From: a virus
Direction: 5' to 3' (one strand)
Length of the DNA: 24,107 bases
Virus record (IMG/VR): IMGVR_UViG_3300009466_000018
Location: 1 to 24,107 of that record
Numbering within the stretch: the stretch's first letter is position 1; each line of letters opens with the position of its first letter. Positions 2,430 through 22,991 of this stretch are shown piece by piece. Under the pieces are notes generated by a model. It was not told where the DNA came from. It worked only from the letters and a program-made list of their open reading frames with translations, and searched no databases. The position numbers and the translations under genes are program-made.

Positions 2430-2747
2430 ATGAAACATTTGCTGTTCTTGCTGCCTTTTGCTGTCCTCAGTCCTCTCGAAGCTCGTACAGTTACAGCTAC
2501 AGTTTATCACGAATGGTATCACAATAGAATCACATACTGCGGTCAAACATACCAACACTGGGGTATCAGCGCAGCGCATCCCTGGTTACCCTGCGGCACG
2601 AAAGTTCGTGTCACCCACGCTGGCCGGTCGATAACTGTACCGATCACAGACCGCTGCGAATGTAACTCGATAGATTTGAGTGCAGGCGCTGCGGACCGAT
2701 TGGGGGTGCCCCTTAACGACATCCGCAAGGTACAGATCAGCTACTAA
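2430..2747 (+). CDS. exported RlpA-like double-psi beta-barrel protein, 105 aa
   Basis: Residues 1-18 form a classic signal peptide (basic MKH, hydrophobic LLFLLPFAVL, cleavage expected near A18). Residues 22-105 are a complete RlpA-like double-psi beta-barrel: TATVYHEWYHN, the GxxY....SAAHPWLPCGTKVRV block, then TDRC and the closing IDLSAGAADRLGV. RlpA proteins bind or cleave denuded glycan strands of peptidoglycan. By alignment to Pseudomonas RlpA, the His (H50) and Asp (D74) active-site positions are kept, but the Glu position is Gln (Q39), so lytic activity may be lost. Four cysteines (37, 55, 76, 78) suggest disulphides in the periplasm. There is no SPOR domain. Role inferred: cell-wall remodelling or binding during infection; it could alternatively be a small lysis factor. 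Confidence 0.85.
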   Translation: MKHLLFLLPFAVLSPLEARTVTATVYHEWYHNRITYCGQTYQHWGISAAHPWLPCGTKVRVTHAGRSITVPITDRCECNSIDLSAGAADRLGVPLNDIRKVQISY

Positions 2748-2854: not shown

Positions 2855-3277
2855 ATGAAGTTCTCGAAAGACAACCAACCACTACGGGAGATCACTCGAT
2901 GTCCCAAATGCGACACACCCGCTTTCTGTGTTCTTGAGACCCGCTCAAACAGAGATTACATAAGGCGTAGAAAGCACTGCAAAGAATGTAAGCATCGTGC
3001 CACCTTCTACGAAATCTCACAGGAGAAGTACCACCAACTCGAAGAAGACTCTAGGACTCTTCATCGTTTGCTCGGTCATCTACAAGAACTCGTAACGGGC
3101 AGAGGTGAGCCGATTGGCAAAGTTACAGTTCCAAATAAAGTTACGATCCCGTGCGATCAATGCGACCATGCGAACAGCGGTAGATGTTCGTTCGATTACC
3201 CTGAGGCGTTCACACCAGAAGCATACGATTGCTCTATGTTTATAGAAGAGTATAAGAACGCAAATCTGGTTAAGTGA
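2855..3277 (+). CDS. NrdR-like zinc-ribbon protein, 140 aa
   Basis: Residues 16-53 reproduce the zinc ribbon of NrdR, the repressor of ribonucleotide reductase genes: C16-x2-C19, then VLETR, I-R37-R38-R39, C42-x2-C45 and TFYE. NrdR normally continues into an ATP-cone domain of about 90 residues; that is absent here. Instead a helical linker (54-80) leads to a second cysteine cluster, C100-x2-C103, C111 and C126, which may bind another metal. The protein is therefore a DNA-binding ribbon on a different scaffold. It may mimic NrdR at host nrd operators without nucleotide control, or be a generic phage regulator. Start: the first ATG after the hairpin at 2824. Confidence 0.75.
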   Translation: MKFSKDNQPLREITRCPKCDTPAFCVLETRSNRDYIRRRKHCKECKHRATFYEISQEKYHQLEEDSRTLHRLLGHLQELVTGRGEPIGKVTVPNKVTIPCDQCDHANSGRCSFDYPEAFTPEAYDCSMFIEEYKNANLVK

Positions 3278-3670: not shown

Positions 3671-4093
3671 ATGACCATCAAAACCTCCGATCTGGTCTCT
3701 CTCGGTGAGCGTGCTGCCCTTGCGTGGGATGAATGCGACCGAGCTCTGACTGCACTGAACGAATCCTTTGGCACTCCGTTCGAAGCTGCCAAAGATAACC
3801 TGCTGCGCGACATCAAGATCGCGGAGTCTGAAGGGATCGATCTCTCTATTTTCAGCGGAGCCGACAGCCGCTTCAAGTTCCCCGACCTGCACACGAACAT
3901 CGTTGTGCGGATCTCGCGTAAGCCCACGCCGCACACCAAACTCGAACGGCTCGCCGATAAAGTGGCGAAGCTGGAGCAAGAGCTTAAGGTTGCGAAGATG
4001 CAACTCAAGCACACTGCAGAGCAGCTCGTAGCACAGCACGAGTGCGATGAGCTCACCGACAAAATTACCCTGGCCTTCACCCGTCTCAAGTGA
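3671..4093 (+). CDS. hypothetical coiled-coil protein, 140 aa
   Basis: No family is recognised. The first half is helical with a mixed centre (SEGIDLSIFSGADSRFKFPDL). Residues 90-125 form a strong heptad coiled coil (LERLADKVAKLEQELKVAKM...), so it probably oligomerises. No membrane segment. The ATG at 3671 follows an AC/T-rich SD-less leader. The stop overlaps the next ATG (TGATG), so the membrane peptide that follows is probably translated by coupling. Confidence 0.7.
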   Translation: MTIKTSDLVSLGERAALAWDECDRALTALNESFGTPFEAAKDNLLRDIKIAESEGIDLSIFSGADSRFKFPDLHTNIVVRISRKPTPHTKLERLADKVAKLEQELKVAKMQLKHTAEQLVAQHECDELTDKITLAFTRLK

Positions 4094-4251
4094 TGCGTAG
4101 GAAACTCGAAAACTTCGCCCTGTTTACAGTGGCGAGCATCATCATGGCTTTCACCGCTTTCGGTGCCCTTGGCGTCAATCCTGGCGTCGCCCACCACTCT
4201 AAAGATTGCGGATCAACACAAAACCTTGACACTCAGTGCGCTAAGCACTAA
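4093..4251 (+). CDS. small single-pass membrane peptide, 52 aa
   Basis: The ATG at 4093 overlaps the previous stop (TGATG) and the frame runs 52 codons to TAA at 4249-4251. The product has a basic N-terminus (MRRK), a hydrophobic helix at about residues 8-32 (ALFTVASIIMAFTAFGALGV) and a short polar tail with two cysteines. It could be an inner-membrane peptide or a secreted peptide after signal cleavage near VAHH. Its last codons overlap the promoter at 4226-4254. Possible roles include lysis timing, superinfection exclusion or a membrane partner for the coiled-coil protein; none is demonstrated. Confidence 0.6.
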   Translation: MRRKLENFALFTVASIIMAFTAFGALGVNPGVAHHSKDCGSTQNLDTQCAKH

Positions 4252-4254
4252 TCT
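4226..4254 (+). promoter_or_regulatory. strong sigma-70-type promoter of the MoxR-VWA operon
   Basis: A perfect -35 TTGACA (4226-4231), a 17-base spacer and a -10 TAATCT (4249-4254). The spacer carries the inverted repeat AGTGC-GCTAA-GCACT, which could be an operator. Transcription would begin near 4261, just upstream of the hairpin at 4274-4298 and 75 bases before the DUF3150-like gene. The promoter is embedded in the end of the membrane-peptide gene. Confidence 0.65.
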
Positions 4255-4273
4255 GTACAAGAGCTTGCGCTCC

Positions 4274-4304
4274 AATCCCCTGTGTGATGCAGGGGATTTC
4301 TTCT
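4274..4304 (+). terminator. leader hairpin, possible terminator/attenuator
   Basis: AATCCCCTG and CAGGGGATT form a perfect 9-bp stem around the loop TGTGATG, followed by TCTTCT. It lies about 20 bases downstream of the predicted start of transcription and upstream of the MoxR operon. It could end upstream transcripts, or attenuate transcripts from the promoter at 4226. The T-run is imperfect, so the strength is uncertain. Confidence 0.5.
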
Positions 4305-4335
4305 ACCCACCACATCGACACCCATTTAACTAAGT

Positions 4336-5532
4336 ATGAACCACTACCTTCTGTCCTGCTCCATCTCTGCGGACGTCCGGCAATCTGTTCAGATCAAGTT
4401 CGACGATCTGAAACTCCCTCAACAAGTTATCGATACACTTGAAGCCAACAACACAGTCAGCATCCGCCCCCACTTGTCGAATGCACTGAAAGGCAAACTC
4501 GATGCGCTTCGTGTAAAACAGCGTCAACTGTACGACGCCTATTGCATCCACTACGGTGACGCACACTTCGTAACTGCTTCTTACTTCCAGGAAGCAAACG
4601 CGATGATCAAAGAGATCAAACGCGACGCTGAAACTTACAACGCAGAACTCAAAGACCTGTGGGAGAGCGAGTACACTCGCTGGCAAGAGACAGCTAACGG
4701 TATTCTTCGCCCCCTGTTCTCTGAAGATACAGAGTACTCCATCGCATTCGACGCTTACATGCGATTCTTCCCCACGCAGGAAGAGTATCGCAAACCAATC
4801 CGCGTCTCTGTTCTCGGTCCTCTGCCTGTATCTCTGCAGAAAGTTGAAGCTCCTATCGAGGGAGACATTGATTCTGTTCTTGCTTACGAGAATGCGATCA
4901 ACACTCAGCAAGTTCTGGAAGCTGCCAAAGCTTCTGCGTCTGATAAAGCTCTGACACTCAGTGCTCAGTTGCTCGATGATTTGGATGTACGCAACGTAAC
5001 TAAGATCGGGCGCCAACAAACTGGCTCCGATAAGAAACGCGGTAGCTGGCAAATCACCGCTGAGAAACTGAAGCTCATCAGTGACAGTGTTCCTGCATTT
5101 GGTGATCTATCTGTACTGGCAGATCGTCTGCTGCAGTCAGGCAATAATCTGCAATCCCCTGACCGTGGCGTGCGTACCAAAGCAGTAGAAGACTTCTACG
5201 CTGTGCAGGAAGAGATCCGCACGGAGCTCTCTAACATCTGCAACAGTCATAGCAATTCTCAGGGTCTGGAGAAACTGCAGCACTCTCTTGCACTCAGCTC
5301 CGAATACAAGTTGCTGTGCGAAAAGATCAAGACTGTCGAAAGCGCTAACGCTCTCAACCTGTTGATTAAAGATGCCAACACAGAAATCGACATTTATGAA
5401 CAGCGATCAAAGCAACTGCGCAAGCTGATTGCCCAACGCCGTGAACTTATCCAAGCCGCGAATCAAAATCTTGATGATCTGATCGGTGACGTCAACTCTC
5501 AACCTGAACAACAATTGGAGGCTGATTTCTAA
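4336..5532 (+). CDS. DUF3150-like helical protein of MoxR-VWA operon, 398 aa
   Basis: A large, almost entirely helical soluble protein with no catalytic motif. Size, helical character and position immediately upstream of a MoxR ATPase and a VWA protein match what I know of DUF3150-type proteins, which are found beside AAA+/VWA pairs in phages and integrative elements; sequence assignment is tentative. The C-terminal part (about 330-385, including IDIYEQRSKQLRKLIAQRREL) is a likely coiled coil. By analogy with other MoxR-VWA clusters, it may be the substrate adaptor or the protein complex remodelled by the ATPase. The ATG at 4336 follows an SD-less leader. Its stop overlaps the next start (TAATG). 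Confidence 0.7.
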   Translation: MNHYLLSCSISADVRQSVQIKFDDLKLPQQVIDTLEANNTVSIRPHLSNALKGKLDALRVKQRQLYDAYCIHYGDAHFVTASYFQEANAMIKEIKRDAETYNAELKDLWESEYTRWQETANGILRPLFSEDTEYSIAFDAYMRFFPTQEEYRKPIRVSVLGPLPVSLQKVEAPIEGDIDSVLAYENAINTQQVLEAAKASASDKALTLSAQLLDDLDVRNVTKIGRQQTGSDKKRGSWQITAEKLKLISDSVPAFGDLSVLADRLLQSGNNLQSPDRGVRTKAVEDFYAVQEEIRTELSNICNSHSNSQGLEKLQHSLALSSEYKLLCEKIKTVESANALNLLIKDANTEIDIYEQRSKQLRKLIAQRRELIQAANQNLDDLIGDVNSQPEQQLEADF

Positions 5533-5741
5533 TGGACCGAAAAGTTTACGTATTCAAAACAGACAACGGATATCTTTCAGACGTTGACCATTACACAACG
5601 GACGCAACACGAGCCGTTTCCTTTGTTGATTTCGATTCAGCGGCTACACGTCTAGCGGCAGTCATCGGCGTAATTAACAGACCAATCTCAATCGAAGAAG
5701 TCTCACTGCCTTTTCCTCTTCCGTTTCCTAAGCAACTCTGA
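5532..5741 (+). CDS. hypothetical 69-aa protein within the MoxR-VWA operon
   Basis: The gene overlaps the upstream stop (TAATG) and the downstream start (TGATG), so its reading frame is fixed by both neighbours. A GGAG at 5517-5520 is one of the few Shine-Dalgarno-like sites in the window, though its 11-base spacing is long. The product begins MDRKVYVFKTDNGYLS, a short beta-rich fold, and ends in a proline/phenylalanine tail (FPLPFPKQL) that could dock on a partner. No family recognised; the coupling implies a role with the ATPase and VWA proteins. Confidence 0.65.
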   Translation: MDRKVYVFKTDNGYLSDVDHYTTDATRAVSFVDFDSAATRLAAVIGVINRPISIEEVSLPFPLPFPKQL

Positions 5742-6928
5742 TGAACGACCAACTCTTCGGCAAACTTCAAAACTTTCGTGGTGCACTCAACGCTGCCACG
5801 CTCGAACGCGAGCATGTAATCGACGGGCTGCTCGCTTCCGTTATCTCGAAACAGAATGCCTTCTTGCTCGGTGCTCCGGGTACAGGTAAGAGCGATCTGG
5901 TTCGTAGTGTCTGCAAGGGTATTGCAGGCGCAAACTACTTTGGTTATCTCCTGACACCTACAACAGATCCCAGTGAGCTGTTCGGTCCTGTCGCAGTAAC
6001 CAAACTACTTAAAGATGAGTACACACGAGACGTTGATGGTTACTTGCCCTCGGCTCACATTGGTTTCCTCGATGAATTGTTCCGCAGTTCCTCTGCGATT
6101 CTTAACTCACTTCTCTCGCTGTTGAACGAACGTACATTCAACAACGGCAATCAAGTTATCGAAACTCCGTTGCAGTCGATCATCGCTGCGACAAATAGTT
6201 GGCCTCAGGAAGAATCGCTCCAAGCTTTCGCAGATCGATTCCTGTTCCGTCCGACTGTAGAGATGCTGAAGAAGCCTGTGTCTAAGCGGACACTCGATGA
6301 GTGGGCTTTGGGCATCGAAGACCGCCCACAGGTTGGCGAGTTTCTGACACTCTCCGAACTGAAGGAGATTCAGGAAGCCGCTAAGAAAGTGAAAGTATCT
6401 GACGACTTTCTAGATAAGTTTAATTCTGTGTGGCAGATGCTGTCACAACGCAGCATCACGATCTCCGATCGCCGCCGCGTACAGATCCTCAAGTTCCTTC
6501 GAGCTTGGGCAATCGTTCAAGGTGATGAGGAACTCTACCCTGAGCACATGCACAACAGTCTCGTACACATTGTGTACAACGATCTAGAAGATCAAAGCAC
6601 TATCATCGAAATCCTGGAGCAGGAGGTTCCCACGGCGGAGCGGCTGTTCGCTGATGCAAAGCGGGCGGCAAGCGGAATCATGACTGAGTTTGCAGCGCTG
6701 CGCTCGCGTCAACAGCAGAACAACATCAGTTCATTGAACGATCTTGTCGTTCATCTCCGTAAATACCATAAGGATATGAACACGGTTAAGGACAAAGTGG
6801 ATGAGCTTCTCGATGGATCTAGGATTCGCATGAGCATGGCCGTCCGATCCCGAGCCGTGAAACTATCGCAAAACCTTCAAAACAACTGCGACACAATCGC
6901 TCAAGCCCTCAACGAAATCACTCACTAA
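5741..6928 (+). CDS. RavA-like MoxR-family AAA+ ATPase, 395 aa
   Basis: A complete AAA+ module: Walker A GAPGTGKS (44-51), the RavA-type segment YFGYLLTPTTDPSELFGPV (66-84), Walker B FLDELF (109-114, D111/E112), the hallmark helix AILNSLLSLLNERTFNNG (119-136), sensor 1 ATNSWP (150-155) and arginine-finger candidates in DRFLFR (165-170). MoxR ATPases remodel or activate protein complexes, usually with a VWA-domain partner, and the partner is the next gene. The DELF...LLNER signature is closer to RavA than to CobS-type MoxR proteins found in cyanomyoviruses. The C-terminal 130 residues are helical and may be the substrate or VWA-binding arm. The start is at a TGATG overlap. Confidence 0.95.
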   Translation: MNDQLFGKLQNFRGALNAATLEREHVIDGLLASVISKQNAFLLGAPGTGKSDLVRSVCKGIAGANYFGYLLTPTTDPSELFGPVAVTKLLKDEYTRDVDGYLPSAHIGFLDELFRSSSAILNSLLSLLNERTFNNGNQVIETPLQSIIAATNSWPQEESLQAFADRFLFRPTVEMLKKPVSKRTLDEWALGIEDRPQVGEFLTLSELKEIQEAAKKVKVSDDFLDKFNSVWQMLSQRSITISDRRRVQILKFLRAWAIVQGDEELYPEHMHNSLVHIVYNDLEDQSTIIEILEQEVPTAERLFADAKRAASGIMTEFAALRSRQQQNNISSLNDLVVHLRKYHKDMNTVKDKVDELLDGSRIRMSMAVRSRAVKLSQNLQNNCDTIAQALNEITH

Positions 6929-6930
6929 TC

Positions 6931-8481
6931 ATGGATCTCCAGAAGAACTCTGAGTTTGTTCGTCTTGTAAACAACGAGCCACTGACCCTAGTGTGCTCCG
7001 CTCTCGCAGACTTCCTTTGGGAAGATTTCGTCCGCGACACAAAACCTAACGTCACCTACCTCGTTAACACTTACAACATCAAACAACTCTCTAGGTTCGG
7101 TAAGGAGGTATTCGAGCGCCTGTACAGCGCCGACGAAGTTAAGTGGCTGATCAGCGATGAGGACTTCGAGCAGTACTTTAGAGAAATCTGTAACGGTGAT
7201 ACTACTGCGACACCTAAGGGCTACAAGCCAGAGAACGCTATCTGGTATTCGATCATGGGAGATCTTTCCCAAGCTGCTGCGTGGCCCACGCTGCTTCAAC
7301 GTTGCGTGGGCGAGCAGTTCAACTCCGGCAACAACGCCGTTCGAATTCTCAACGAGATCTCAAAAGTTATCGAGGAAGCAATCCAACAAAACATGTTCGA
7401 TGTCCAGCTCCTAGTAGGTGCAGGGGACCAACTGCAACAACTAAGAGACCAGTACAACAAAGCTGTACAAGACGGAGACAAAACTGCAGCGAACGAAGCT
7501 CGTACACAAGGTAAGGAGCTCGGACAGAAGATACATGATGCCCTGCAGAATGTGAAATCTCAAGTTCAGGCAGAAGCCAACACGATCGTCGATAAAGTTC
7601 TCGGCGAGAGTGACGAACAGAACGAAGAGATCAGCAACTTGTTCGGTTCAATGCCTGGCAACGGCAAGATGCTGAGCGATCTGCAAGAGAAGAAGAACCT
7701 AGCTAATCGCTTGAGTCGGAACAAAACTCTTAAGCAGATCGCTAAGAAACTCGGTGCACTGCGACGGGTATGGACTGAGCGTAAACGAGCCAAACCTGCA
7801 AAATCCAATTACGAAGCAGTGACCGGCGCAAAGTTCAGCGACAGCGTGATCAACGCTTTCCCCACGGAGCTCGCGCTGGCTGGTTCTAAGGAAGGTCAAG
7901 CTCTCTTTGCTCTCAAGTACTCCCAGAAAACAATCCTCACCAAAGACTACACAGCATCCAGAACTGACTTAGGTTGCGGTCCTGTGATCATGTACGTCGA
8001 TGTCTCGGGATCGATGCACGGCGACCTGGAGCTCTGGAGCAAAGCAATCGCCTTAGTTATCTCCGAGCAGGCACTGACTGACAAGCGCTCTGTTCACATC
8101 CACCTGTTCGATACGGTCGTGGGACACAGTGTTGAGGTTAAGAGTGGCACACCTAACACGAAGGAACTGATCGACTTCGTTGCAGGCTGGACTCTCGGTG
8201 GAGGTACAAGCTTCAATGCGGTTCTCGCGCATATGGTGAGCCAGAAGGAAAGTCTGAAAAATTCCGACATTCTGGTTCTCACTGACGGGAACTCGGAGGC
8301 AAGTTCCTCGTGGATTTCACGGATAGACAATTTAAAACAAGAAACCGGCGCACAAATTACTACAGTGTGTCTGGATATGTCCGTACCTGAAGTATGCAAA
8401 CAGTTCAGCGACGAAACGTACTCAGTAGATACATCCAATAACATCGATTCAATCGATGTAATCCAGAAGTGCATCCGATGA
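6931..8481 (+). CDS. ViaA-like von Willebrand factor A protein, 516 aa
   Basis: The C-terminal third (about 350-515) is a VWA domain with a full MIDAS: D357-V-S-G-S361, T426 in GGGTSF and D452 in VLTDGN. Before it lies the ViaA-type region: a helical segment with a coiled coil (165-225), LKQIAKKLGALRRVWTERK (267-285) and the FPTELALAGSKEGQALFALKY block (310-330). This matches the LPSE-L...L arrangement of E. coli ViaA, the partner that stimulates RavA. It starts 3 bases after the ATPase stop codon, so the two form an obligate pair in one operon. The role is inferred to be substrate recognition through metal-dependent binding. The target is unknown. Confidence 0.93.
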   Translation: MDLQKNSEFVRLVNNEPLTLVCSALADFLWEDFVRDTKPNVTYLVNTYNIKQLSRFGKEVFERLYSADEVKWLISDEDFEQYFREICNGDTTATPKGYKPENAIWYSIMGDLSQAAAWPTLLQRCVGEQFNSGNNAVRILNEISKVIEEAIQQNMFDVQLLVGAGDQLQQLRDQYNKAVQDGDKTAANEARTQGKELGQKIHDALQNVKSQVQAEANTIVDKVLGESDEQNEEISNLFGSMPGNGKMLSDLQEKKNLANRLSRNKTLKQIAKKLGALRRVWTERKRAKPAKSNYEAVTGAKFSDSVINAFPTELALAGSKEGQALFALKYSQKTILTKDYTASRTDLGCGPVIMYVDVSGSMHGDLELWSKAIALVISEQALTDKRSVHIHLFDTVVGHSVEVKSGTPNTKELIDFVAGWTLGGGTSFNAVLAHMVSQKESLKNSDILVLTDGNSEASSSWISRIDNLKQETGAQITTVCLDMSVPEVCKQFSDETYSVDTSNNIDSIDVIQKCIR

Positions 8482-8496
8482 GCGAGGTGCAAAACT

Positions 8497-8673
8497 ATGG
8501 ATAATGTGTTTCAAGAAATAATAGAGGAATATAACGAGAGGTCAAACAGCGTCAGCCACGTGCGCGTCCGCGCTCCCGAAGCCCCTGGAGAGTTTTTTTA
8601 TGACTCCGACACAGGAAAGCTTTACGTGTCTGGCGCCGATGGTGAAGGCGAATTAAAGTGGTTTGCACTTTGA
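8497..8673 (+). CDS. hypothetical acidic protein, 58 aa
   Basis: The ATG at 8497 opens 58 codons to TGA at 8671-8673 and fills the gap after the VWA gene. The product begins MDNVFQEIIEEYNERSNS and ends with a strand-rich FFYDSDTGKLYVSG segment, resembling the short beta-hairpin repeats of phage structural or adaptor proteins. No family recognised. It is probably the last gene of the MoxR-VWA operon. Confidence 0.6.
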   Translation: MDNVFQEIIEEYNERSNSVSHVRVRAPEAPGEFFYDSDTGKLYVSGADGEGELKWFAL

Positions 8674-10008: not shown

Positions 10009-11904
10009 ATGCAGGTTCGTTACATCCAAACAGCCGAACAGTTCAAGGAAGTTCTGCCCGAGTTGAAGCAGATTCCAAAGATGTGTTTGGACTGCGAAAC
10101 AACGGGTCTGCAAGCAACAATCGCGAAGCTCCGCTTATTACAGCTCTGTGATGCCACGCCGGATATCGAGGATCGTATTGTTTACGTTCTAGACCTCTTT
10201 AAGTTCAAACCAAACGAAGAGCTCAAGGAACTTATTGAGTCTCGCGCCATGCTTCTGGCGCACAACATGAACTTCGACTTTCAGTTCCTGCTATCGATCG
10301 GAATCGATTTCAAGAACAAGATCTTCGATACGTACCTAGCCGAACGAGTCCTACGTGCTGGATTTAAGGAGAAGCGGATCAGCCCGAAGTCTCAGAACAC
10401 GTACTTTACAGATGTCAGCTGCAGCCTAAAGGCCGTGGCAGAGCGCAGGCTCGAAATAGAAATCAGTAAGGAGCAACAGAAGTCCGATTGGGGCGCTGAA
10501 GAACTCGATATTGAGCAGATCGAATACGCGGCAGGAGACGTCGATATCCTCCCACGCATCGCGGCATCCCAGCTGGCTGAGCTGAAGGAAGAGAATCTCC
10601 TTTCGGTTTACGGTCTCGAATCTAAGTGCGTCCGCCCCGTGGCAATGATGAGCTACAGAGGATTCTGCGTTGATTTGGAAAAGCTCAACAAACTCAAAGC
10701 ATCTATCGAAGAGGAACTGGAGCAGAAAACCGAACAGTTCGTTAAGTCGCTAGACGATAGACTTCCGGCAGATATGAAACTCCCTCGGGGAATTGACGGA
10801 AAAGTCGCAGTCGGCAAGAGACCGAAAAAGGATTTTAATCCTGGATCAACGACGCAGGTTATTTCCGCCTTTACTGCTTGCGATATCGAGCTGCCTAGAG
10901 ACGCCAAGACGGAGAAGAAGACCCTCAACCAAATCGCCCTCGCAGAGTTTGATAGCGACGATCCCACGCTGAATCTCTACCGACAACGGGCGAAGGTCGA
11001 AACGAAACTGGAGCACATCACCAAGCTGCTGGAGAATGTAAATCCTGTAACGCTGCGGATTCACTCCGGCTACAACCAAACAGGTGCAAACTCTGGGCGT
11101 TTCACGAGCAACGGTGCCCCTAAGACAGCCAAAAGAGAGAAGAAAACAGTTTTTGCGGTCAACATCCAGCAAGTTCCCCGGGGTAAGGAATTCAGAGAGT
11201 GCTTCGTAGCTGAACCAGGATTCAAACTGGTGATCTGCGACTGGGCTCAGATCGAGCTGCGGCTCGGTGCGGAGCTGATCAACATTCCTCAGATGCGGCA
11301 AGCGTTCAAGGACGACATTGACCTGCACACAATGACCGCCAGTCTCATCTACAAAAAGGACTTACATGAAGTGTCTAAAGATGAACGACAGGACGGTAAG
11401 ACTCTGAACTTCGCCTTGTTATACGGAATGGGTTACCGAAAATACAAGACATATGCGGCACAGAGCGGCAAGATGCTATCCCTATCGGAGGCTAAAGTTG
11501 CGCACGCTGCGTTTCATGCTGCGTACCCACGCCTGCGTATGTGGCACCGCGAACGGGCGGCTCTGGTCGAAGATGGGTGGGCTTATGTACGTACAGCGTG
11601 CGGACGTCGCAGGCTCTTAAGTTACGATGACGCAACAATGATGTGCTCAGCTAACACTTTGATCCAGGGCAGCGGCGCAGACATTCTCAAGATCGCCATC
11701 GCAGATCTGAACGAACATTTAAACGAAAATGTGCGAATGGTTGCGTGCGTGCACGATGAAATCGTGCTAGAAGTTAGAGAGGATCTTGCTAATAAATACA
11801 AAGAGGTGCTGGAAACCGCCATGATCCAAGCGGCTCAAAAAGTGTTAACATCTGTCCCAGCATCAGCAGATGCGAATGTTGGCGATTCATGGGCCGCTAA
11901 ATGA
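10009..11904 (+). CDS. polA: family A DNA polymerase with 3'-5' exonuclease, 631 aa
   Basis: The replicative phage DNA polymerase. Exonuclease: LDCETTGL (D28/E30), AHNMNFDF (D90) and Y173-x3-D177. Polymerase: motif A DWAQIELRLG (D411), motif B with R460, K464, F468 and Y472 (KTLNFALLYGMG), and motif C VHDE (H582/D583). There is no 5' nuclease domain, as is usual for phage family A enzymes. F468 corresponds to E. coli Pol I Phe762, the residue used in viral ecology to class family A polymerases. Both catalytic centres look intact. The ATG at 10009 follows an SD-less CATCATCTCCCTC leader. The stop overlaps the next start (ATGA). Confidence 0.97.
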   Translation: MQVRYIQTAEQFKEVLPELKQIPKMCLDCETTGLQATIAKLRLLQLCDATPDIEDRIVYVLDLFKFKPNEELKELIESRAMLLAHNMNFDFQFLLSIGIDFKNKIFDTYLAERVLRAGFKEKRISPKSQNTYFTDVSCSLKAVAERRLEIEISKEQQKSDWGAEELDIEQIEYAAGDVDILPRIAASQLAELKEENLLSVYGLESKCVRPVAMMSYRGFCVDLEKLNKLKASIEEELEQKTEQFVKSLDDRLPADMKLPRGIDGKVAVGKRPKKDFNPGSTTQVISAFTACDIELPRDAKTEKKTLNQIALAEFDSDDPTLNLYRQRAKVETKLEHITKLLENVNPVTLRIHSGYNQTGANSGRFTSNGAPKTAKREKKTVFAVNIQQVPRGKEFRECFVAEPGFKLVICDWAQIELRLGAELINIPQMRQAFKDDIDLHTMTASLIYKKDLHEVSKDERQDGKTLNFALLYGMGYRKYKTYAAQSGKMLSLSEAKVAHAAFHAAYPRLRMWHRERAALVEDGWAYVRTACGRRRLLSYDDATMMCSANTLIQGSGADILKIAIADLNEHLNENVRMVACVHDEIVLEVREDLANKYKEVLETAMIQAAQKVLTSVPASADANVGDSWAAK

Positions 11905-14252: not shown

Positions 14253-14897
14253 ATGAACGTTTTTATCCTCGGCCTTCGGGTCACAGCGGGCGCCGCTGAA
14301 GACGACGGAACTGTAAATGTACTTGCAGAGTCCCTGCCATCAAACGAAAAGCGTGTTGCGACGAAAGTCCAGCTGCTGCAGAAGGCTGATCACTACGTAG
14401 GCAAGCTTCTGAAAAAATTCGAAGAAGGACAAACCGTCTTAGCAATCGGTCCCACGCGGCCAACTCCTGACGGCGTGCTGCAGATGCAGCCCATGCTTGT
14501 AGTGACTGAAGAGAATTTCCAGGATCTCCTGGCGATCAACCTCTTCATCGCAACCGGCGGCCTGGGTCCAAAGGCTGAGGAGATGGAGATTGGTGATAAC
14601 ACCGTCACCAACCGGTCGCTGGCATGGCAGACCGAAGACCAAGAAACCGCATGGATGAAGCTATCCGCGTGGGGTGAGCTCTCGGCACAACTCGCTGAGC
14701 TAGCTCCTGGAACCCCGACGATTGGCGTGGGTAAAGTCTCAACCTCCGAAAAGGACGACAAGTCTTACCTCAACTACAATCTGGATAAGGTCCTTTACCT
14801 GCCTAAGGCATCACGTAAGGCACCTGTAAAAGCAGCCGACCCCGAAAAAGGGAAGGTTGCCGCTGCTGCTCTCGGTTCGATCGACTTTTCCCTCTGA
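14253..14897 (+). CDS. SSB-like single-stranded DNA-binding protein, 214 aa
   Basis: Residues about 118-185 look like the core of an SSB OB-fold: NRSLAWQTEDQETAWMKLSAWGELSAQLAEL, then PGTPTIGVGKVSTSEKDDKSYLNYNLDKVL, parallel to the W..v..wGkLAE.....KG..V.v.G pattern of SSB. Residues 36-90 may be a second OB-like domain. The C-terminus (GKVAAAALGSIDFSL) is a short linker plus hydrophobic tip, in the position of the protein-interaction tail of SSBs, although it is less acidic. Position between polymerase and primase-helicase fits. The start at 14253 follows AAACCGGAACC, with a weak GGA. Confidence 0.8.
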   Translation: MNVFILGLRVTAGAAEDDGTVNVLAESLPSNEKRVATKVQLLQKADHYVGKLLKKFEEGQTVLAIGPTRPTPDGVLQMQPMLVVTEENFQDLLAINLFIATGGLGPKAEEMEIGDNTVTNRSLAWQTEDQETAWMKLSAWGELSAQLAELAPGTPTIGVGKVSTSEKDDKSYLNYNLDKVLYLPKASRKAPVKAADPEKGKVAAAALGSIDFSL

Positions 14898-14909: not shown

Positions 14910-15698
14910 ATGTTTATCGCTGGTGATTTTTCGGAATCCGAAATCCTCTGCAACATTCCGCCTCACACTCTGCGTATCGATCTTCAAGCTCGCCGCTGGA
15001 AGTCTGACGTTGATCCCGACAACGCCATCGTAGATCGCAACGACAACGGTATTCCCATTGAGTTCATCCTCATTGGGTTCACACCGTACTTCGGAAACCT
15101 CGGTATGCGTAACCAGGAGGAGTTTCTCCGTATCGCGTACATCGGTGTGTCTCCCAACCACAGGTTGCTCCCGCCCCGGTGCGTCACGACCTCGATGATC
15201 TCTGGCAAGTCCAGCCAGAAGAACTTCATCGCGTACTTCCAGACCCTGTATAACAACCGCATTAACTGTGCGTCTGTTATTACTTCAACCAAGTTCGTGA
15301 CTCGCTCCTTCAACGAGCGCGATCCGATGACCGGTGCTGATGGGGCGAAGATCAACTTCAACTGCCTGGACTTCAGCGACCGCCCTGCTCAAAACGACGA
15401 AGAGGAAAAGCTCCTCAAAGACGTGTCCCAGTGGCTGGCCGCAGACGGAACAGGTCTGGCAGCGAACGCACTGAAGAGCAGCATCCCTGGTGCTGACTTG
15501 ATCGAACTGCCTCTGGGTAGCGATCATGCTGCACTCAAAGCTGAGTTTGCAGCCACGCGGGGTCAAGCTCCTGAGCGCACGTTTGCTGCACCCGAACCCG
15601 AAGCTAAAGCCTTGAAGTCTGCTGAACCTCCTTCTCCTAAAGGAAAGAAGGTTGAGCTAACCGAAGAGCAAGCAAAAGCACTCGGGATCGATTTCTGA
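14910..15698 (+). CDS. SSB-associated hypothetical protein, 262 aa
   Basis: I do not recognise the fold. The N-terminal 170 residues are beta-rich with several aromatic strands (FILIGFTPYFGNLGM, FIAYFQTLYNNRI), followed by a helical segment, a Pro/Ala/Lys-rich linker (about 205-245) and a short terminal helix ending KALGIDF. That ending echoes the IDFSL tip of the preceding SSB-like protein, and the linker-plus-tip layout suggests it too contacts a partner in the replisome. It starts 12 bases after the SSB stop and is closed by a terminator, so the pair is one transcription unit. Recombination mediator or second ssDNA-binding protein are reasonable guesses. Confidence 0.7.
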   Translation: MFIAGDFSESEILCNIPPHTLRIDLQARRWKSDVDPDNAIVDRNDNGIPIEFILIGFTPYFGNLGMRNQEEFLRIAYIGVSPNHRLLPPRCVTTSMISGKSSQKNFIAYFQTLYNNRINCASVITSTKFVTRSFNERDPMTGADGAKINFNCLDFSDRPAQNDEEEKLLKDVSQWLAADGTGLAANALKSSIPGADLIELPLGSDHAALKAEFAATRGQAPERTFAAPEPEAKALKSAEPPSPKGKKVELTEEQAKALGIDF

Positions 15699-21921: not shown

Positions 21922-22291
21922 CTTTGCTCTCCTTAATGTGGTCAGCTACGATCTCTTGGAGATAATCCATAACACACTGTTTCTTAGCTGCAGCTAGATT
22001 AACCAGATGCCAGTAGTCTTGTGTAGGTAGATCAACACTGAGGAGAGTACGAGACGATCCAGGCGTGGTGATTTCGTAAACAGGAGATTTAGGAAGTTCA
22101 TTTGGAAAAAGTTGATTGCAAAGTTTTGCAATACGCTCCGCTTTAGAAGCGCAGTGCTTGTACTCATCAAAAAGCGTGGTCTTAATGAGCTCCGCAAGGG
22201 AGTTACAGATTTCTTCGTCGTCTAAACAGGCATAAAGACGATCTGTAAAGAAATCAATTGTGCTTTCACGCTGTTTTTGTTCATCAAACAT
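21914..22291 (-). CDS. hypothetical helical protein, 125 aa
   Basis: The frame stays open to 22360, but the ATG at 22291 (MFDEQKQRESTIDFF) is preferred because upstream extension lies inside thyX, and this ATG overlaps the thyX stop by 8 bases, the same overlap seen downstream. The product is mostly helical with four cysteines and a segment rich in Leu/Ala, ending ...VDLPTQDYWHLVNLAAAKK and a charged tail. No family recognised. Function unknown. Confidence 0.6.
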   Translation of the reverse strand: MFDEQKQRESTIDFFTDRLYACLDDEEICNSLAELIKTTLFDEYKHCASKAERIAKLCNQLFPNELPKSPVYEITTPGSSRTLLSVDLPTQDYWHLVNLAAAKKQCVMDYLQEIVADHIKESKDV

Positions 22292-22991
22292 GTTGCCAGC
22301 CCTCCAAACCGCTGGTAGTAGAAGAGGACTCCACGAGTGCTTCGTGGATGACCGGCACACATTCTGCCAGAATTTCTCCGATTTGCTTGGCGATCACCCT
22401 GTGTTCGAGCTGTGTGTCAGGGCGAGCACGCAAACCGACATAGAAAATCCAATCCCGGAGCGTACCTTGCATGTGTAAACGGGTAGGGGAACACATTGGC
22501 AGAATCTTTCGGGCGCACTCCTTAGCCACGCCGCTCTGAAGCATCGCCTCGTATATCTCTTGTATATCCTTGTAGACCTCGTGGATGCGTTCCTTCAGCG
22601 AGTCTTTAACTTCCCCATCAGGGAAGGGCAAACTGTTTTGACGGTTTTTAAAATCTTGTGCTCGCAGATCAAAGTCCCAGCACTTGTCATTCAGTGACTC
22701 TAGGATATCTGTAGGATCACTGTACCTCTGGGAAAGCTCTTGGAAGTGGAAAGCCCTGTGTCTAATTATCTGCGCACTGATAGCACGAGAAGTGCAGATG
22801 CTGAATGATGCGCACACCTGCTCATAAACAGACCAGTGACCGTGCTTAATGCAGTACTTTAAAAGGTTCTTGTACTCTTCGCGCTTGGGGTTCTTTGTGC
22901 TGACACGTGCGTGCTCGGATACCACGGCTTCTGCGTGGGGCGTGATCCAATCAAGTGACGCGAAGTGAAGGTCAGTTACTTGTGTCGACAC
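22284..22991 (-). CDS. thyX: flavin-dependent thymidylate synthase ThyX, 235 aa
   Basis: Converts dUMP to dTMP using FAD, NADPH and methylene-tetrahydrofolate. The ThyX signature RHR-x7-S is present (R77-H78-R79 to S87, followed by QRYSD). It is preceded by the HGHWSVYEQV segment (H52), with C-terminal LRDWIFYVGLRARPDTQLEHRVIA providing the dUMP/FAD-binding arginines, as in functional ThyX. Length is typical of the family. Start is a GTG at 22991, nested by 20 bases in the end of the upstream 58-aa gene. It supplies dTMP for phage DNA synthesis. The absence of other nucleotide genes here is not evidence of their absence in the genome. Confidence 0.95.
   Translation of the reverse strand: MSTQVTDLHFASLDWITPHAEAVVSEHARVSTKNPKREEYKNLLKYCIKHGHWSVYEQVCASFSICTSRAISAQIIRHRAFHFQELSQRYSDPTDILESLNDKCWDFDLRAQDFKNRQNSLPFPDGEVKDSLKERIHEVYKDIQEIYEAMLQSGVAKECARKILPMCSPTRLHMQGTLRDWIFYVGLRARPDTQLEHRVIAKQIGEILAECVPVIHEALVESSSTTSGLEGWQHV

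Follow-up and report, generated by a model that had tools for sequence, protein, structure and literature searches.

A conserved A398–MoxR–VWA gene cassette upstream of the DNA polymerase gene of a probable cyanophage, and its possible role in DNA handling

The 24.1-kb window analysed here (positions 1 to 24,107 of IMG/VR record IMGVR_UViG_3300009466_000018, a fragment from an uncultured virus) carries a conserved cassette encoding a MoxR-class AAA+ ATPase, a ViaA-like VWA protein and a 398-residue protein, A398, which ends in an invariant Asp-Phe (-DF). The cassette is located in the replication module, upstream of the gene for a family A DNA polymerase (polA). We tentatively propose, at somewhat less than an even chance, that the three proteins form a mobile-element remodelling machine acting in phage DNA replication or recombination, with A398 as its adaptor or client. 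Phage MoxR–VWA pairs have so far been read as virion chaperones or cobalamin genes; here the third protein, the plasmid-borne core and the invariant -DF point to a DNA function in mobile elements, and the cassette probably serves the handling of their DNA rather than the building of virus particles. The central genes are as follows.

4336–5532 (+): A398, 398 aa; divergent DUF3150-type protein with a predicted β/helical core, a variable acidic linker and the invariant C-terminal -DF
5532–5741 (+): B69, 69 aa; optional insert at the A398/MoxR junction
5741–6928 (+): MoxR-class AAA+ ATPase, 395 aa; RavA branch by model score, LARA region undetected
6931–8481 (+): ViaA-like VWA protein, 516 aa; metal ion-dependent adhesion site (MIDAS) intact

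The four open reading frames (ORFs) between 4336 and 8481 are those called in the initial annotation; neighbouring frames overlap by 1 base at the first and second junctions and stand 2 bases apart at the third. Its extent for the whole locus (4226–8673) needs correction at both ends, as the conserved cassette begins at 3671 with an upstream gene, U140, and the end at 8673 is also misplaced. The 58-residue ORF at 8497–8673 is detectable in the closest relatives only.

Scans of IMG/VR returned 34 loci for the ATPase, 12 for the VWA protein and 55 for A398. Of 71 distinct contigs, 67 have complete A398, MoxR and VWA genes. The order A398–MoxR–VWA is kept in all 67, and U140 is located upstream of A398 in 62 of them. 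In the most distant relatives, U140, A398, MoxR and VWA are nearly joined, with gaps of mostly a few bases; U140 and A398 are directly joined there (gap −4 to +9 nt). A search anchored on polA gave 38 loci with at least 4.5 kb of upstream sequence, and cassette genes are present at 35. The other three fragments lack them, and a search of those three whole records found no MoxR. No polA-anchored record was found that has lost part of the A398–MoxR–VWA trio and kept the rest, and MoxR and VWA occur together in every complete-copy contig; the independent loss of pair members in related phages, which the initial annotation had named as evidence against a pair, is not seen. The ratio of nonsynonymous to synonymous substitution rates (dN/dS) against close relatives, where computable, is below 0.1 from U140 through the VWA gene, except for U140 against relative L009 (0.109). 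The cassette genes are real and under strong purifying selection.

Tblastn of A398 against 50,697 phage records found nothing, and a degenerate-pattern scan of 84,980 bacterial species gave no relative. In PLSDB, tblastn hit just five records, each of them a conjugative plasmid from the cyanobacterial genera Acaryochloris or Chroococcidiopsis. Four of the five have a MoxR/AAA gene and then a VWA gene after the A398 homologue; in the fifth, the locus is apparently broken up by insertion elements. The profile scores of the plasmid proteins are 63–78 bits (A398), 250–304 bits (MoxR) and 159–182 bits (VWA).

The plasmid loci bear directly on a role in virion assembly, one of the options raised in the initial annotation. 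In the Acidianus two-tailed virus (ATV), the MoxR ATPase p618 binds virion proteins as well as the VWA protein p892 (PMC4124505), and a similar role has been proposed for the MoxR–vWA pair of group 2.2 jumbo phages (PMC7824862). As conjugative plasmids make no virion, the presence on them of remote homologues of the trio makes a function limited to virion assembly unlikely. The cassette also lies upstream of polA, with the SSB-like, exonuclease and primase genes of the window downstream, and A398 has no structural-gene homology. Overall, a virion-assembly chaperone seems a poor prospect; the replisome, another of the options raised, or recombination is favoured by the neighbourhood.

Identity of the three proteins

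The ATPase exceeds the cut-offs of PF20030 (184 bits, cut-off 27) and PF07728 (81 bits, cut-off 22). Its motifs (Walker A GAPGTGKS, Walker B FLDE, sensor-1 AATN, LLNER and SDRRR) are intact and mostly invariant across 22 divergent relatives. RavA is the sole strong NCBIfam match (NF010054, 138 bits), well below the curated cut-off of 681; the model aligns over positions 6–298 of 498 only, and its LARA/triple-helical C-terminal region is unmatched. Sequence matches in the PDB are to RavA only, spanning 8–270 of the profile. A tree of homologues sets the phage ATPase in a separate clade with a long branch. Its neighbours there are the MoxR of Aphanizomenon phage CL131 and sequences from deltaproteobacteria and Moorella phage, and the homologues from Ferrimonas and Marinobacter stand apart from the phage clade.

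These scores also bear on two other functions. CobST clusters are widespread in tailed viruses and are read as cobalamin genes (PMC8651126), and one bacterial DUF3150 locus carries a CobT-type VWA protein, which would suit an auxiliary metabolic chelatase such as phage CobS/CobT have been suggested to be, supplying cobalamin for nucleotide synthesis. The ATPase gave no NCBIfam match to CobS at E ≤ 1 (its nearest model is RavA), it scores 24.6 bits with a porphyrin-biosynthesis PHROG against 245 bits with its own (phrog_19600), and Pfam found no CobT domain among the cassette proteins. A chelatase is the least credible of the functions considered. PF20030 (bpMoxR), the best Pfam match, is named after the VMAP/MoxR–vWA ternary systems described in PMC7159879, and the cassette might by that token be a related conflict or superinfection-exclusion system. 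The family matches in 12 of 14 control genomes, however, and is therefore not specific to conflict systems; the cassette has no VMAP-like, effector or β-propeller protein, and PADLOC gave no match of note. We regard a conflict system as very improbable.

The VWA protein passes the cut-off of VWA_3 (33.4 bits, cut-off 27), scores 111 bits with phrog_24053 and shares homology with its VWA counterpart in Moorella phage MTATph1. The MIDAS is intact, as originally described, with D357, S359, S361, T426 and D452 invariant in 30 sequences. The ViaA model NF008230 aligns to residues 238–502 with 70 bits (curated cut-off 500). The predicted structure is weak, with a mean predicted local distance difference test score (pLDDT) of 67 and a predicted TM-score (pTM) of 0.48. 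The initial description of the pair as RavA–ViaA-like thus stands for the ATPase and VWA cores, whose nearest models are RavA and ViaA; membership in either family does not, since both cut-offs are missed.

This likeness is the main argument for a host-directed modulator, in which the pair would mimic RavA–ViaA on a respiratory, photosynthetic or stress complex of the host or act as an anti-defence factor. In Escherichia coli, fumarate reductase and complex I are interaction partners of RavA–ViaA (PMC10585395, PMC3893208), the top-scoring curated models are RavA and ViaA, and occurrence on plasmids fits a host-directed role too. The LARA region is, however, unmatched, PADLOC gave nothing of note, and the deep conservation and linkage to polA resemble core replication more than a variable host-takeover gene. 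A host modulator is, on balance, doubtful, yet the most plausible of the other functions.

A398 reached no Pfam family and had no match among sequences of solved structures. It falls short of the gathering score of PF11348 (DUF3150), for which hmmscan gave no match with the window protein at E ≤ 0.5, and PF11348 is not among the 25 families listed for 27 A398 members. When the phage alignment of A398 was compared with 14 DUF3150 proteins, hhalign gave a score of 42.1 (probability 61%); the maximum in 40 block shuffles was 22.8, and the reversed alignment scored 23.8. Adding the plasmid homologues raised the score to 44.2 (probability 67%, control 25.8). The AlphaFold model of A398 (pLDDT 82, pTM 0.69) had as its top Foldseek match in a viral structure library a DUF3150 domain protein (E = 1.5e-5, TM-score 0.42–0.54); against PDB folds, no match with E ≤ 0.001 was found. 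DUF3150 genes in gammaproteobacterial genomes adjoin a gene for a Walker-A AAA+ ATPase and one for a MIDAS VWA protein, and in both families a variable acidic or proline-rich linker is followed by a terminal aromatic residue. The suggestion that the 398-residue protein is DUF3150-like is in this way supported, remotely, along four lines (profile, fold, neighbourhood and C-terminal end). The hhalign probability stays below the usual confidence level, so the relationship counts as remote; A398 is best described as a divergent DUF3150-type protein.

Terminal tails, replication setting and proposed role

The C-terminus of A398 is -DF in all 63 distinct sequences, while the 20 residues before it are variable; the linker preceding -DF is variable and acidic. 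Phe or Trp is terminal in 12 of the 14 DUF3150 proteins. Three genes of the replication module enter the argument.

10009–11904 (+): polA, family A DNA polymerase; constant downstream neighbour and anchor of the replication module
14253–14897 (+): single-stranded DNA-binding (SSB)-like OB protein (PF00436, 19 bits, under the cut-off of 26); tail ...ALGSIDFSL
14910–15698 (+): 262-aa protein of the replication module; tail ...ALGIDF

The SSB-like protein ends in SL in 55 of 55 sequences, with DFSL in all printed tails, and for its neighbour at 14910–15698 the ending is DF or EF in 41 of 45. An (I)DF peptide is common to the A398 C-terminus, the SSB-like protein (ALGSIDFSL) and this neighbour (ALGIDF).

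The setting recurs outside the window. Aphanizomenon phage CL131 has the gene run MoxR–VWA–DnaN, and DUF3150 loci are often found near primase, YqaJ or DnaN genes. As this replication setting (polA, DnaN, primase, YqaJ) recurs in unrelated elements, a role in replication or recombination is favoured.

In the proposed machine, a MoxR ATPase ring would work with the ViaA-like VWA co-chaperone and the DUF3150-type A398. A398 would most likely be a dedicated adaptor or client, whose core would hold or enter a nucleoprotein target while its flexible acidic tail, through the Asp-Phe end, would dock on the MIDAS of the VWA protein. Alternatively, the tail could dock on a replisome hub also used by the SSB-like and 14910–15698 proteins. 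ATP use by the ATPase would then remodel or release A398 and its bound complex during phage DNA replication or recombination. This model draws on the shared tail peptides and on three precedents. The flexible C-terminal tail of SSB is in general a partner-binding site, and T7 gp2.5 cannot perform a polymerase function without its C-terminal phenylalanine (PMC9917605 and a reference cited there); in NorQ/NorD, an acidic patch of the target is the supposed binding site for the MIDAS motif of the VWA protein (PMC9976466).

The protein identities, which are well supported, the conserved trio, the tail and the setting in the replication module are observed; the contacts between the trio proteins, a DNA complex as target and its remodelling are what we infer. 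Several points weigh against a replication or recombination machine. Convergence may account for the -DF ends that these proteins share. A398 has neither a detected DNA-binding domain nor a solved-structure match, and its DUF3150 link is remote (hhalign 61–67%, TM-score 0.42–0.54, Pfam cut-off missed). Replication genes are common in any phage, and the plasmid trio loci have no polymerase directly beside them, so the replication role rests on the neighbourhood in other elements. The cyanobacterial host is suggested by distant homology only. The proposed machine nevertheless offers two precise mutable sites, the last two residues of A398 and the VWA MIDAS, and it provides a set of partners that can be tested for DUF3150, an uncharacterised family.

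Upstream region, B69 and other genes of the window

Upstream of A398, three further features are found.

3671–4093 (+): U140, 140 aa, C-terminal half predicted coiled-coil-like; upstream cassette member
4093–4251 (+): small ORF, 52 aa; predicted exported or membrane protein, overlapping the U140 stop
about 4274–4298 (+): hairpin resembling a terminator, with a U-rich run after it; located between the 52-aa ORF and A398

U140 matched no Pfam or PHROG family, and a scan of cyanobacterial plasmid genes detected no homologue of it. The 52-residue ORF, passed over in the initial annotation, encodes MRRKLENFALFTVASIIMAF...DCGSTQNLDTQCAKH, with a hydrophobic N-terminus and two cysteines. Counterparts at the same position, usually with two cysteines, are found in the nearer relatives (L002, L003, L005, L009, L010, L012, L014, L060 and others) and are absent from the most distant ones.

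A "perfect" promoter, TTGACA-N17-TAATCT at 4226–4254, had been described here. TTGACA is indeed present at 4226; TAATCT matches TATAAT at only three of six positions, and the element is not listed by a consensus promoter scan. It sits in and just past the 3′ end of the 52-residue ORF, with TAATCT opening on the stop codon, so that its conservation is largely explained by coding. The promoter was rejected on these grounds. The hairpin, taken before as a leader structure, has an RNA fold z of −2.28, and among eight relatives 5 of its 11 pairs have changed on both sides and still pair. Given the U-rich run and the preserved pairing, a terminator is the simpler reading, and the hairpin looks like one. 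A TTTAACTAA-like motif directly before the A398 start (4325–4333) is conserved in many relatives, with similar sites at 1432 and 2323; allowing at most one mismatch, TTTAACTAA occurs 11 times in the window against 3.8 expected.

B69 matched no family in Pfam, PHROG or NCBIfam. With its FPLPFPKQL tail, it had been described as looking like a dedicated adaptor. As no copy is detectable in 21 of the 67 contigs, it is an insert, and the adaptor reading was rejected; the tail is not conserved.

The window is probably from an uncultured cyanophage, judging by sequence similarity. The best matches of its exonuclease are in Synechococcus phages S-EIV1 and S-CBS4; for primase and polA they are in S-EIV1 and Pseudanabaena phages. 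No cassette could be detected in S-EIV1, which has primase, exonuclease and ThyX in common with the window. ThyX (22284–22991, −) scores 140 bits with PF02511 and is 42% identical to S-EIV1 ThyX over about 207 residues. No psbA-type photosystem genes were found in 17 larger relatives, which neither proves nor excludes a cyanobacterial host. No RNA families or tRNAs were found in the window. Among hypothetical genes, 2430–2747 (+) encodes a small protein that has a signal-like N-terminus and a DPBB/RlpA-like lytic transglycosylase domain (PF03330, 68 bits). An NrdR-like zinc ribbon is present in the 140-residue product of 2855–3277 (+), which scores 28.7 bits with PF22811.

Comparison with known systems

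Viral MoxR–VWA pairs are known from ATV (PMC4124505), Bacillus phage 0305phi8-36 (PMC2147016) and jumbo phages (PMC7824862), and, in the form of CobST, from PMC8651126; another MoxR subfamily, CGN, has been reported in a cyanophage (PMC9964418). A full-text literature search, with most subscription journals outside its scope, found no paper with DUF3150 and no description of the A398–MoxR–VWA trio. The ATV p618/p892 and 0305phi8-36 pairs resemble the phage pair in combining a virus-encoded MoxR ATPase with a partner subunit. They differ in that the ATV pair is tied to virion tails, and the accessible portions of the two papers describe no DUF3150-type third protein for either pair.

E. coli RavA–ViaA provides the nearest models to the phage ATPase core and VWA protein. 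The phage pair differs in scoring far under the curated cut-offs, in the unmatched LARA region, in the additional A398 and in being phage-borne.

The DUF6744–MoxR–VWA loci of Moorella phage MTATph1, a Brevibacillus plasmid and deltaproteobacteria have MoxR and VWA homologues with a third gene upstream. This third protein, DUF6744, has no A398 homology that could be found; a direct relationship was tried and rejected, as the hhalign score was no better than that of shuffles. One deltaproteobacterial metagenome-assembled genome has paralogous DUF6744–MoxR–VWA loci (L107:2545-3495 and L108:1907-2854), in which the DUF6744 proteins end in DADVGF.

The proteobacterial AAA+–DUF3150–CobT-like VWA cassettes follow the same three-part logic, with a third protein that is remotely related to A398 and usually ends in an aromatic residue. 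They differ in having a CbbQ/CobS-type ATPase, a VWA protein that can be CobT-type rather than RavA/ViaA, and another gene order. In one gammaproteobacterial locus (L241:621-7632), the gene run is YqaJ recombinase–AAA+–DUF3150–VWA–DnaN, and the YqaJ protein ends in an acidic run and EWFY.

The MoxR/CobS–VWA cassettes of phages, plasmids and integrated elements could conceivably form one general class of DNA-complex remodelling machines, an unlikely generalisation as it stands. The class would be defined by its third protein (A398, DUF3150 and some DUF6744), whose flexible tail would be the handle, its acidic/aromatic end docking on the MIDAS or on a replisome hub. If so, many phage "CobS/CobT cobalamin" genes would be replication remodelers and not metabolic.

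The closest counterparts of the cassette are the cyanobacterial plasmid loci, in which the genes are annotated just as hypothetical, MoxR/AAA and VWA. These differ from the phage in the low identity of their A398 homologues (about 21–24%), in that no U140 or B69 was found, and in being carried by conjugative plasmids. Acaryochloris marina pREC1 and pREC4, Chroococcidiopsis pCHRO.01 and CCNUC1 pA encode the same three families in the same order as the phage, and their third proteins also end in Phe (DPVVGF, DPVAGF or DPEAGF).

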